Part shown: positions 3,539-7,874 of the stretch, one piece after another
Numbering within the stretch: position 1 is the stretch's first letter
Layout of the letters: every line of letters starts with the position of its first letter
DNA from: Alphaproteobacteria bacterium
Lineage (GTDB): Bacteria > Pseudomonadota > Alphaproteobacteria > Sphingomonadales > Rhodothalassiaceae
Length of the DNA: 10,955 bases
Assembly (NCBI GenBank): GCA_003694205.1
Contig: RFKS01000210.1
Span: forward strand, 1-10,955
Direction of reading: 5' to 3'
Made by a program: the position numbers and the translations under genes
Notes under the pieces: model-generated
Database searches by the model: none
What the model saw: the letters and a program-made list of their open reading frames with translations, nothing else
Told to the model about the DNA's origin: nothing

Positions 3539-3692
3539 AAGCTTTCGACGCGTTTGAGGCGAAGCCGAATCAATTGCGACTGGAACCAAACCGCAGGATC
3601 GACTAGGGTGCGGGGTCGCGAATCGGGGGATCGCTCGTCTGCTTCCCTTCATCGCTGCAATGGAATGGCGCTGCGATAAGGCGAAAGGTGTC

Positions 3693-4403
3693 GTGACGAC
3701 GAAGCTTCGGAAACTGGTTCTGACGACCGCGGTGGCAACCGCCGGGATGGTGACATTGCATCCCGCGGTGGCGGTTGATCATGTGCCGGCGGCCTCGTCG
3801 CTGAGCTATACGATCGAGCGCAAGCATCGCGAAATCGGACGCCATATCGTGTCCTACACGATCACCCCCAACGGCCAGCGCGATGTCGAGATCGCGACCC
3901 GCATCCGCGTCAAGTTCGCCTTCATGACCGTCTTCCGCATGGATCATGCCGGTCATGAGCTCTGGGATCGGGATCGGCTGGTACGCATGCTTACCGAGAC
4001 GAAGAAGAACAGCCAGAAGGAAGAGGTGGATTTGCGTGCGGTTGGCGATCATGTCATCGTCGCCACCGACAAGGGCACGGAAACGGCGCCGCTCGACGTC
4101 GTTCCGAGCAGCTTCACCAAGCCCGACTTCTGGATCGATTCCGGCGAGAAGCACTTTCTGTTGCTCGACACGCTGTCCGGCCGGCTGCGTCCCTCGAAGC
4201 TGGTTTATGAGGGCCGCAAGACCCTCGAGCTCGATGGCCAGGCGTATGACACGCGCTGCTACCGCATTTTTGCCACTACCGATGGCCGCCTGAGCCACGA
4301 ATTCTGGATCGATGACGCGGGGTACCTGATCAAGGCGCATCTGATCACCCGCGACGGAGAATCCCTTTACTACACCTTTGCAGGGAGCGAGCGCGCGGCC
4401 TGA
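3693..4403 (+). CDS. Exported DUF6134-type protein of unknown function
   Basis: From the GTG at 3693 the product has 236 residues. The first 25 or so form a clear Sec signal peptide: Lys/Arg-containing n-region (TTKLRK), hydrophobic core (LVLTTAVATAGMV) and an A-V-A cleavage region, so the mature protein is periplasmic or beyond. The rest is beta-rich with an opening LSYTIERKHREIGRH and a closing segment HEFWIDDAGYLIKAHL. I match this to the family labelled DUF6134, found in alphaproteobacteria; no catalytic motif is visible and the role is unknown. An in-frame ATG at 3660 would add 11 residues, but it has no ribosome binding site and would lengthen the n-region, while AAAGG lies just before the GTG. 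It stands alone: 197 bp after the PLP enzyme and 135 bp before fnr. Confidence 0.75.
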   Translation: MTTKLRKLVLTTAVATAGMVTLHPAVAVDHVPAASSLSYTIERKHREIGRHIVSYTITPNGQRDVEIATRIRVKFAFMTVFRMDHAGHELWDRDRLVRMLTETKKNSQKEEVDLRAVGDHVIVATDKGTETAPLDVVPSSFTKPDFWIDSGEKHFLLLDTLSGRLRPSKLVYEGRKTLELDGQAYDTRCYRIFATTDGRLSHEFWIDDAGYLIKAHLITRDGESLYYTFAGSERAA

Positions 4404-4538: not shown

Positions 4539-5270
4539 ATGGCCGAAGGGGAGCCCGGTTGGTCGGCAGCCGCGCCGAAGGTGATGTGCCTGTCCTGTCC
4601 GGCGCGCGACAGTTTTCTGTGCTCCGGCCTCGAGGACCACGAAATCCGGCACCTCGCGGCGCGGGCGACGCGTTTCCAGTTGCCGAAGGGAAAATCGCTG
4701 ATCCTCGAGGGCGACCCGTCGGAGAATGTCTACAACATCATTTCCGGCGACGTTGTGCTCTCGCGCGTCGCCAGCGACGGTCGCCGGCAGATCCTCGGCT
4801 TCCTCGGCGAGGGCGATTTCATCGGCCTCACCCTCTCGGAACATTACAAATTCTCGGCCGAAGCCCTGAGCGATGTCCGCCTGTGCCGCTTCGACCGTCG
4901 CTCGCTCGACGAACTCGTCGAACGCTTTCCCGGCATGGACCGTCAGATCCGCCGCATGGGTGCGGCGGCGGTCGATCACATGCTCGGCCTCGTCTTCGCG
5001 CTCGGGCGCAAGTCGGCGGAGGAACGCGTGGCGACCTTCCTTCTCGACGTCGCCGAGAAACAGGGATGCTGCAAGGACCCGAGCCGCACCATACATCTCG
5101 CGATGACGCGCGGAGATATCGCCGATTTCCTCGGCCTGACCCTCGAGACCGTGAGCCGCACCATCTCCCGCCTCAAGCGCCAGGGGATCATTCGCCTGCT
5201 TTCGAGCAACCGGGTCGAAATCCTCAAACCAGACGAGCTCGCCGCACTCGCCGATGCCGAGGTCGCCTGA
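4539..5270 (+). CDS. fnr: FNR-type oxygen-sensing transcription regulator (Crp/Fnr family)
   Basis: The product has 243 residues. N-terminal cysteines C17, C20 and C28 have the spacing C-x2-C-x7-C seen in alphaproteobacterial FnrL/FnrN, and C116 (LCRF) sits where FNR keeps its fourth ligand. All four ligands for an oxygen-labile [4Fe-4S] cluster are therefore present. A cyclic-nucleotide-type beta roll (about 40-120), dimer helix (about 130-165) and winged helix domain follow. The recognition helix LTLETVSRTIS carries E203, S206 and R207, equivalent to E209, S212 and R213 of E. coli FNR, which read TTGAT-N4-ATCAA. By family, it activates or represses genes when oxygen is scarce. The start at 4539 is supported by AGGGGA 8 nt upstream; an in-frame ATG at 4431 would add 36 unconserved residues. 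A matching FNR box is present at 6295-6308. Whether the local name is fnrL, fnrN or aadR cannot be told. Confidence 0.9.
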   Translation: MAEGEPGWSAAAPKVMCLSCPARDSFLCSGLEDHEIRHLAARATRFQLPKGKSLILEGDPSENVYNIISGDVVLSRVASDGRRQILGFLGEGDFIGLTLSEHYKFSAEALSDVRLCRFDRRSLDELVERFPGMDRQIRRMGAAAVDHMLGLVFALGRKSAEERVATFLLDVAEKQGCCKDPSRTIHLAMTRGDIADFLGLTLETVSRTISRLKRQGIIRLLSSNRVEILKPDELAALADAEVA

Positions 5271-5341
5271 GGTGATCGCTCGGCGCGGCGCGCCGTGGCC
5301 TGTACCAGTGGCAGACAGTCGTCCCGATCCGGGTTGTTGCA

Positions 5342-5362
5342 CCTGTCCCATTTCGGGACAGG
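5342..5362 (+). repeat. Perfect 8-bp inverted repeat, possible activator binding site
   Basis: CCTGTCCC (5342-5349), five bases, GGGACAGG (5355-5362). It lies 72 nt after fnr, is not followed by a T-run, and its centre is about 97 bp upstream of the predicted start of the candidate small RNA, a normal distance for a sigma-54 enhancer. A related GTCCC-N5-GGG lies exactly 24 bp upstream (5321-5333). It is not a NifA site (TGT-N10-ACA), since the spacer is 11. Confidence 0.5.
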
Positions 5363-5378: not shown

Positions 5379-5417
5379 GGGCGCACGCCTCCAACCCATT
5401 GATTTATTTAGATGCTG

Positions 5418-5438
5418 AATGCTGGCACGGCGCGTGCA
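5418..5438 (+). promoter_or_regulatory. Sigma-54 (RpoN) promoter candidate
   Basis: AATGC-TGGCACG-N4-GTGCA matches the published consensus mrNrY-TGGCACG-N4-TTGCW at every position except the first T of the -12 element. The invariant GG (5424-5425) and GC (5436-5437) are exactly 10 bp apart. The predicted start of transcription is about 5449. No annotated-size gene lies downstream on this strand before the terminator at 5532-5567, so the transcript would be a short RNA. Confidence 0.5.
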
Positions 5439-5448
5439 GCCTTCGGGG

Positions 5449-5567
5449 TACCGCTGCCGGGTTTGCCTGAGGCCCAGTGGCGGCCTGTGACAGCGACAGA
5501 CCGGTGCCTGAGCGGTTTGTCGTCCAACTCGAAAAGGCGGCGCGGAGTATGGCGCCGCCTTTTTTTT
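5449..5567 (+). ncRNA. Candidate sigma-54-dependent small RNA with two identical loops
   Basis: From the predicted start at about 5449 to the end of the terminator T-run the RNA would be about 119 nt. Hairpin 1 pairs 5451-5461 with 5473-5483, with G-U pairs and one mismatch, and shows TGCCTGA in its loop. Hairpin 2 pairs 5494-5503 with 5513-5522, 10 bp with a single G-U pair, and shows TGCCTGAG (5505-5512) in its loop. The terminator hairpin follows. The same octamer is at 5464-5471. Two hairpins with one repeated loop, ending in an intrinsic terminator, is a common small-RNA layout (loops that pair with mRNAs or bind a protein). I do not recognise the family: it does not look like 6S, SRP, tmRNA or RNase P RNA. 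The alternative is that it is just the 3' untranslated end of the fnr message. Confidence 0.45.
5532..5567 (+). terminator. Strong intrinsic terminator
   Basis: AAAAGGCGGCGC (5532-5543) pairs perfectly with GCGCCGCCTTTT (5552-5563) around an 8-base loop, and the run of eight T covers 5560-5567. It ends plus-strand transcription, either of the candidate small RNA or of fnr. On the minus strand it sits just after the membrane-protein stop codon and is followed by only four T, so it may work weakly in both directions. Confidence 0.9.
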
Positions 5568-5570
5568 GCC

Positions 5571-6233
5571 TCAGGCGCCCTGCGTGAGGCCGAACCATGC
5601 CGCCGCGAGCAGGCACAGATACAGCAGCACGGCGAGGGCGCTCGCGCGCGGCAGCGAGTGCTCGAGCGATACTGCAAATGGCGGCGGCGGCCGCAGGCTG
5701 TCACCTTCGGTCGAATAGAGCACCGGCTGGGTCACCATCTCGATCCCGAATGTGAGCAGGAGCGCCGCCCCGTAGAGCATGAATTTGGCGGCGAGCCAGG
5801 ACGTGCCAAGTGGCGGCCCGCCGGCGAGCGACAGCGCGCCGGTGCCGAGCATGAGCAGGCCGACGATAACCATCAGCACCCGCTGCGCGGTTCGGATGCC
5901 GACAGCGAGGTCGGTGCGCCGGCTGCGCGGCTGGCGCCAGACGCCAATCAGCCAGATCAACGCCAGAAGCCAGACGCCGGCGGTTCCTGCGCCGGTCATC
6001 TCGAACAGTCCCCGCGCCTCGGCGAGCTCGATCCCGAGCGGCAGCATGAGGATAAAGGCCGAGCGCGACAGGCGCTCGATACGCATCAGGGCGACCACCA
6101 TGTGTCGCTGTTCCGTGGCGCCGGACCGCTCCGCGGCGCGCATCTGCCAGAGCAGGACGAGACCCGCGAGATGGGCGCCCAGCCAGATGGCGAAGAAGGC
6201 AAGATGAGTGAGCAGCAGGACGGATGTCGACAT
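5571..6233 (-). CDS. Uncharacterised six-helix inner membrane protein, probably FNR-controlled
   Basis: The product has 220 residues with six likely membrane segments at about 5-29, 57-75, 84-99, 116-137, 146-167 and 197-215. Helix 1 reads LTHLAFFAIWLGAHLAG and holds H10 and H21, recalling the His-bearing first helices of CopD-, DUF2269- or HemJ-like proteins; this is a loose resemblance, not an assignment. Heme or metal binding is therefore possible but unproven. The ATG at 6233 has AAAGGGG 8 nt upstream; an in-frame ATG at 6320 would add 29 residues that cover the promoter region and is rejected. A near-perfect FNR box lies 62-75 bp upstream. It is convergent with fnr, and the two share the terminator region at 5532-5567. 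Induction in low oxygen by its neighbour FNR is the most direct inference about its job. Confidence 0.75.
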   Translation of the reverse strand: MSTSVLLLTHLAFFAIWLGAHLAGLVLLWQMRAAERSGATEQRHMVVALMRIERLSRSAFILMLPLGIELAEARGLFEMTGAGTAGVWLLALIWLIGVWRQPRSRRTDLAVGIRTAQRVLMVIVGLLMLGTGALSLAGGPPLGTSWLAAKFMLYGAALLLTFGIEMVTQPVLYSTEGDSLRPPPPFAVSLEHSLPRASALAVLLYLCLLAAAWFGLTQGA

Positions 6234-7786: not shown

Positions 7787-7874
7787 GCGGACGTGGCGGA
7801 ACTGGTAGACGCGCAGCGTTGAGGTCGCTGTGGGCGATGAGCCCGTGGAAGTTCGAGTCTTCTCGTCCGCACCA
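7787..7874 (+). tRNA. tRNA-Leu, anticodon GAG
   Basis: The acceptor arms GCGGACG (7787-7793) and CGTCCGC (7864-7870) pair fully, followed by A and an encoded CCA (7872-7874). The D arm is GCG...CGC. The anticodon stem CAGCG/CGCTG encloses TTGAGGT, giving anticodon GAG at 7821-7823, which reads CUC and CUU leucine codons. A long variable arm with stem GGGC/GCCC, typical of class II tRNAs such as Leu, and a T arm with TTCGAGT complete the cloverleaf. It has its own promoter and terminator. Confidence 0.97.

Follow-up and report, generated by a model that had tools for sequence, protein, structure and literature searches.

The window analysed here, the whole stretch of 10,955 bases, lies on contig C307 of a genome that is 65% complete (genomes, contigs, loci and families are denoted below by G, C, L and f where they must be told apart). 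It contains a Crp/Fnr-family regulator gene, followed on the same strand by a sigma-54-type promoter and a predicted small RNA (sRNA) gene, and then by a convergent membrane-protein gene with no match in Pfam or NCBIfam (Table 1). A preliminary description of the region had proposed an undescribed sigma-54-dependent sRNA between fnr and the membrane-protein gene, possibly linked to oxygen or nitrogen. The elements on which it relied are present. The promoter TGGCACGGCGCGTGCA has GG at 5424-5425 and GC at 5436-5437, with 10 bp between them and a single mismatch to TGGCACGNNNNTTGCW, and is the only site in the window with at most one such mismatch. When two mismatches are allowed, three sites are found versus 1.55 expected, so that the promoter taken alone is within chance for the window; what raises the RNA gene above chance is its conservation in relatives.

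Table 1. Features of the sRNA locus and of the candidate activator gene (window positions unless a contig or locus is named)
Feature	Position	Strand	Basis or remark
DUF6134 protein gene	3660-4403	+	also found before the RNA at 6/27 other loci
Crp/Fnr-family regulator gene	4539-5270	+	upstream of the RNA, same strand; inconstant partner
Weak possible second palindrome TGTACCAGTGGCAGACA	5301-5317		three mismatches; weak alone
Candidate activator palindrome TGTCCCATTTCGGGACA	5344-5360		one mismatch to TGTYYCANNNTGRRACA
IHF-like site, reverse complement ATCAATGGGTTG	5392-5403	-	31 bp before the -24 element
Sigma-54 -24/-12 promoter	5423-5438	+	sequence, mismatch scan
Predicted small RNA, ~119 nt	5449-5567	+	5' end placed from the -12 GC
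Hairpin 1, tip UUUGCCUGAG at 5462-5471	5451-5483	+	fold, covariation
Hairpin 2, GCCUGA at 5506-5511	5493-5523	+	fold, covariation
Terminator hairpin (5531-5564) and U tract	5531-5567	+	fold, covariation
Membrane-protein gene, convergent	5571-6233	-	homologues in G001 and G003
Likely activator, response regulator	G000:C72:2073-3521 (L152:1489-2937)		palindrome in its own promoter

The stretch downstream of the promoter is compact and strongly structured. The fold of 5449-5568 reaches -63.6 kcal/mol versus -45.96 in shuffles (z -4.67; 0/200 shuffles as good), and the RNA is predicted to form three separate hairpins. The last of these is an intrinsic terminator with a 12-bp stem (AAAAGGCGGCGC/GCGCCGCCTTTT) followed by a run of eight T at 5560-5567, although a simple terminator scan of the window reported none. 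Being flanked on opposite sides by an A tract and a T tract, the terminator may be bidirectional and serve the convergent gene too. No open reading frame of at least 10 codons (ATG, GTG or TTG to stop) is found inside 5443-5567, in line with the earlier view that the stretch holds no credible protein. Moreover, a common reading frame is absent among 21 members of the family, and nine of these, the window included, lack any 10-codon frame. A correctly spaced -24/-12 element before a conserved, structured, non-coding and terminator-ended stretch points to the class of sigma-54-dependent sRNAs.

A DNA search with 308 bases against 60 relatives returned only the own genome, and homologues were therefore reached through gene order. 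In L003 and L006, of the same family (Fnr orthologues with 72% and 68% identity), and in L007, of another family, the fnr orthologue is followed by the promoter, two hairpins with GCCTGA tips and a terminator. Another locus of the same family (L004) stops soon after fnr at a contig end, and G003 (L005, same family) has the fnr orthologue and no match to the RNA model described below. A pattern drawn from four gene-order loci (TGGC-N8-TGC, then GCCTGA twice) and run on 296 genomes of the order found a match in 78 of them, and eight matches in the reversed control; many of the pattern matches, chiefly in the large family f6, look by eye like chance. A covariance model was then built from 22 aligned loci, the four founders included, with its structure taken from base-pair probabilities of single sequences. 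RNAalifold on a MAFFT alignment recovered the terminator helix only, apparently because MAFFT had misaligned the variable stems. The model matches in 14 of 39 relatives, distributed over f1 (4/7), f2 (2/7), f5 (6/7) and f7 (2/2), with no match in f3 (0/1), f4 (0/4), f6 (0/6) and f8 (0/5); the pattern added G001 (f1) to these. Three genomes (G002, G031 and G034) have a model match and no pattern match, and in each TGG[CT]-N8-TGC is correctly placed. The conservation of the promoter, which had been named beforehand as a check, is thus not solely a product of the search.

Outside this set, a class-wide scan of 190 genomes with the model (E <= 0.001) gave five matches, namely the own genome and four others (E 4e-5 to 3e-4) that were rejected as members, since by eye they are terminator-like and have no twin tips. 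A stricter pattern run on a collection of 84,980 species returned 52 stretches, 21 of which score at least 53 bits with the model (one of them cut by the end of its stretch) and the next best 23.4; since a match had to contain the promoter and the two tips, this search is hardly informative on divergent members elsewhere. The 21 members belong to Kordiimonas species, Pseudokordiimonas caeni, Eilatimonas milleporae and bins titled Kordiimonadales, Kordiimonadaceae, Sphingomonadales, Alphaproteobacteria or Proteobacteria. The RNA is carried by the named isolates Kordiimonas gwangyangensis DSM 19435 and Eilatimonas milleporae DSM 25217. A protein of the own genome has its best named matches in Iodidimonas (64-67% identity), which makes Iodidimonadaceae or a close relative the probable source of the window.

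Within the family, the two hairpins share their tips. GCCUGAG stands at both tips in the window, and GCCTGA is identical at both in all 22 seed sequences, 18 of which were chosen by a pattern requiring it. Indeed, tip and promoter conservation result partly from selection, because most loci were found by patterns containing both. A fairer sample is given by the seven loci found without a tip search, by gene order (the window, L003, L006, L007) or by the model (L069, L073, L074). Here tip 2 is intact in 7/7 and tip 1 in 5/7, the changed ones reading GCCTAG in L074 and retaining no GCCTGA in L073.

Compensatory changes in the stems, proposed in the preliminary description as support for the RNA, are abundant. 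Across 32 members, aligned by the model and hence in an alignment that favours the structure to which it was fitted, pairing cells amount to 83.5% (shuffles 67.3%). Both partners have changed in 31 of 36 pairs, where shuffles give 21.3, and such cells number 207 versus 67. None of 500 shuffles reaches any of the five covariation measures, and the signal is lost when partners are slid by 1-3 columns. Covarying pairs are present in every helix, and in the terminator helix (helix 5) all 13 pairs show change on both sides. Single-sequence folds, which do not depend on the alignment, give z < -3 in 31 of the 32 members (40 shuffles each) and -2.2 in L073.

In Rfam, the window has one match at the gathering level, a tRNA gene at 7787-7871 (+ strand; RF00005, 50.5 bits), and none over the sRNA. 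None of 4227 Rfam families, Qrr included, reaches gathering over the sRNA of the window or of 11 other loci. As a kind, sigma-54-dependent sRNAs are already known: CrcZ, NrsZ and GlmY have the same promoter layout, and Qrr is a stand-alone sRNA whose sigma-54 promoter is preceded by sites for a response regulator of the NtrC family. The RNA described here is like Qrr in being predicted to stand alone, with a sigma-54 promoter and upstream sites of the NtrC-family type. It differs from the Vibrio Qrr system (LuxO, sigma-54) in having no Rfam match, another regulator and two hairpins with the same tip. CrcZ, NrsZ and GlmY likewise give no gathering match (GlmY_tke1 scores 9.5 bits versus 33 needed).

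Among alphaproteobacterial RNAs, the closest comparison is with alphaR8/MmgR (Rfam suhB, RF00519), which is listed with RpoD and RpoN and described as induced by NtrC (PMC7143759). In the sRNA of G016 (L007), suhB scores 35.7 bits (E 3.5e-6 in a short stretch), mainly over the last linker and the terminator. The gathering score is 41, so this match falls short of it; the window reaches only 15.2 bits, and a search with eight further members yields no Rfam hit at E 0.5. MmgR also has 77 nt, versus ~119 nt here, and its single-stranded core UUUCCUCCCU (PMC12559287) is absent from 5449-5567. On the gathering score and the core sequence we reject membership of RF00519, which we regard as very improbable. 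The suhB-like stretch itself (L007:2404-2476, the end of the G016 sRNA) perhaps reflects a common style of linker and terminator. As judged from these comparisons, the sRNA is a new family that no Rfam family fits, and to this extent the earlier claim of an undescribed RNA holds. It was not found among the listed titles and abstract beginnings of open-access literature on mmgR, alphaproteobacterial sigma-54 sRNAs, PEP-CTERM/RpoN or Kordiimonas sRNA. It would add a conserved family of sRNAs, complete with the sigma-54 control elements, to an alphaproteobacterial branch for which the entries listed on Kordiimonas sRNA include no sRNA study.

We surveyed the neighbours of the RNA in 27 other loci, usually over 1.5 kb per side. 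Upstream of it are found a class-V aminotransferase (12 loci), a DUF6134 protein (6), Fnr (7) and a common un-named protein of 313-320 aa (11), with at least one of the four in 26 of the 27 loci and none in L074. A Fnr homologue is therefore beside the RNA in 7/27 loci, and none was found there in 20/27. In G001, the RNA adjoins DUF6134 and a homologue of the membrane-protein gene (57% identity), fnr is not beside it, and the best genome-wide Fnr match has E 7e-4. Conversely, in G003 the fnr orthologue adjoins, without the sRNA, a convergent gene homologous to that of the membrane protein (33% identity). The RNA is thus retained at its position whether or not fnr is next to it, which speaks against a functional link with fnr. 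Thus, of the preliminary interpretation, the sigma-54-type sRNA gene outside Rfam stands, and the link to oxygen through fnr is not supported; a call made on a single window can be right while the guess of function from its neighbour is wrong.

Upstream of the promoter, we examined 230 bp in 27 loci (L074 left out). A 17-bp palindrome, TGTYYCANNNTGRRACA with at most two mismatches, is found in 26/27 loci (shuffle mean 0.24, largest 2), with 45 sites in total. In 18/27 loci (shuffle mean 0.57) there is also an IHF-like site, placed at -30 to -32. Both motifs were drawn from the scored loci, near relatives included, so that these counts are overstated; the fixed spacing was not selected for. Often there are two or three palindromes per locus, at about -120, -102 and -79 or -109, -92 and -67 from the -24 element. 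At the distance of the weak second site of the window, some relatives also carry a copy (-119 to -123). The IHF-like calls go by the IHF consensus. Palindrome, IHF-like site and -24/-12 element follow each other in the classical order of enhancer, IHF and sigma-54 promoter, and the palindromes are candidate sites for an enhancer-binding protein. We suggest that a two-component, NtrC-type protein of this kind would bind them ~55-125 bp before the -24 element, with IHF bending the DNA that separates them from the promoter. The same region bears on whether the RNA is only a piece of the fnr 3'UTR, or its terminator, without a promoter of its own. Its position just after fnr and in the same orientation agrees with such an origin; yet RNA and promoter persist in the 20 loci in which no fnr was found beside them, and the spacing of promoter, palindromes and IHF-like site is fixed, which makes such an origin scarcely credible.

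The other places of the palindrome offer a specific candidate activator together with its putative DNA site. Of 13 genomes, six carry the palindrome in its strict form, at 11 places altogether, and the own genome has none. Three of the places are at the sRNA, four precede PEP-CTERM genes (L093, L095, L096, L101; PEP-CTERM ends read by eye), one precedes the gene of an NtrC-type response regulator (L103) and three lie elsewhere (L094, L097, L100). Orthologues of the L103-type regulator are present in 21/39 genomes (E <= 1e-140), and the sigma-54 gene in 38/39. G002 has, besides its ordinary sigma-54 gene, a second sigma-54 DNA-binding domain (C5:185707-186183) in an open frame of 795 aa. Five of the first 10 regulator promoters have the strict motif with two mismatches. 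Once the motif had been loosened to TGTNYCNNNNTGNNACA, after inspection of those promoters, it was found with at most one mismatch and at most 300 bp from the start in 16 of 19 regulator orthologues, the own genome included (shuffles 0.29), and with at most two mismatches in 18; among the orthologues, L156 and L157 were left out of these counts and the start of L150 was misread. L157 has a palindrome site at -68, and the regulator promoter of the own genome has TGTCCCACTATGATACA at -76.

The simplest reading is that this regulator owns the palindrome, and it is the likely activator of the sRNA. It is probably autoregulated as well, because its promoter carries the same kind of palindrome. The regulator and its site are also retained in genomes lacking the sRNA, which would then be one of a number of targets. 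Among the matches listed (25 of 115), the regulator is below the cut-off of every NCBIfam model, NtrC and PrsR included. The name TacA was considered for the regulator and dropped, as no TacA site was found among the literature matches listed.

These results leave little room for an RNA tied to oxygen or nitrogen through Fnr or NtrC. The sigma-54 promoter and the fnr neighbour in the window speak for such control, and MmgR is a precedent for an NtrC-induced sRNA in Alphaproteobacteria (PMC7143759). Against it, fnr is dispensable for the locus, and the palindrome is found again upstream of another NtrC-family regulator gene. The nitrogen link proposed earlier therefore received no specific support, and we consider Fnr or NtrC control unlikely.

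The palindrome also recurs before PEP-CTERM genes, for which a search gave 30 matches in 3/9 genomes and no match in the own genome. Promoters were counted at 18 of the 30 loci, with at least two genes counted twice and one misread; on this count the palindrome is present in 7/18, versus 0.25 in shuffles, and sigma-54 sites show no enrichment (3 versus 1.6). The PEP-CTERM promoters with a palindrome are mostly without a sigma-54 site. In five of them (L114, L117, L119, L121 and L131, from G016 and G027) the palindrome is accompanied by TTAA-N7-TTAA, which resembles the CtrA box, and no clear sigma-54 site is seen. Taken together, the other places of the palindrome give a hint of a surface (PEP-CTERM) programme rather than of oxygen.

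PrsR, the PEP-CTERM response regulator, was accordingly considered as the activator. Its published motif (PMC1569441) is 17 nt long, sometimes repeated, lies on average 62.8 nt before the sigma-54 site and ends in TTTACA. The likeness is that of a 17-nt activator motif before a sigma-54 site; the difference is that the site here is TGTYYCANNNTGRRACA and the product an RNA. PrsR is above the cut-off in the own genome, and of the four PEP-CTERM genes preceded by a strict palindrome one (L093) also has a sigma-54 site, TGGCACGATGTTTGC, in its promoter. However, no PrsR is above the cut-off in the RNA-positive genomes G010, G016, G020, G022, G027, G031 and G034 (the last 78% complete), whereas it is present in 6/6 f6 genomes, all without the RNA, and TGTNYCNNNNTGNNACA is found in 0/5 PrsR gene promoters, five of six such genes having been parsed. 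Distribution, motif and promoters all led us to reject membership of the sRNA in the PrsR regulon, and PrsR is an improbable activator.

As a whole, the evidence is best explained, with a probability of roughly 0.7, by a new family of sigma-54-dependent sRNAs that stand alone, act in trans, depend on a two-component activator and pair through their tips. The RNA would be made by sigma-54 RNA polymerase under the response regulator of Table 1, and the transcript would stop at the terminator. Both tips would present the seed GCCUGA, mostly within UUGCCUGAG, and the seed would most likely pair with mRNA sites of the type CUCAGGCAA, altering translation.

The repeated tips on variable stems suggest either two copies of a pairing seed or a motif bound by a protein. 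In the second case, the RNA would sequester or scaffold an RNA-binding protein, in the logic of CsrB or CrcZ, and not be a base-pairing sRNA. One short motif is kept at two tips while the stems vary freely, and weak closing pairs are nearly constant in hairpin 1 (U-A 24/32, U-G 28/32) and hairpin 2 (U-A 30/32, U-G 30/32). Moreover, no recurrent mRNA target was found. By eye, none was seen between genomes in 30 loci among the matches listed and 20 hand-picked regions. The sequence TCAGGCAAA, at 2-32 nt before ATG in 11 genomes, was common among the matches listed and far less so in a reversed control, which differs in composition; TCA-GGC-AAA is an ordinary coding string. On the other side, there are two copies only, we know of no protein that reads a GCCUGA tip, and a tip exposed on a stable stem is equally suited to a pairing seed. 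We therefore hold protein binding to be possible but clearly the less probable role, and base pairing of the tips to be the preferred one.

Base pairing has one lead in the mRNA of the regulator itself. More speculatively, the sRNA may belong, as its RNA arm, to a so far undescribed two-component circuit of Kordiimonadales and Iodidimonadaceae-like bacteria, in which an autoregulated NtrC-type regulator would drive the sRNA and some PEP-CTERM genes from one palindrome, and the sRNA would feed back by tip pairing before the start codon of the regulator mRNA. Qrr feeds back in this way on the luxO mRNA. A tip match near the regulator start was found in three of eight genomes, whereas G006 has a match only at -99 and four have none (8 of 12 genomes were parsed, with one start misread). 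The matches have P 0.02-0.035 versus mononucleotide shuffles, uncorrected for 16 tests, and we treat them as a lead and not as a result. In the own genome, the regulator mRNA has CUCAGGCAA ~25 nt before the start, with a 9-bp Watson-Crick match to tip 1, and similar tip matches are present in the regulator mRNAs of G016 and G012.
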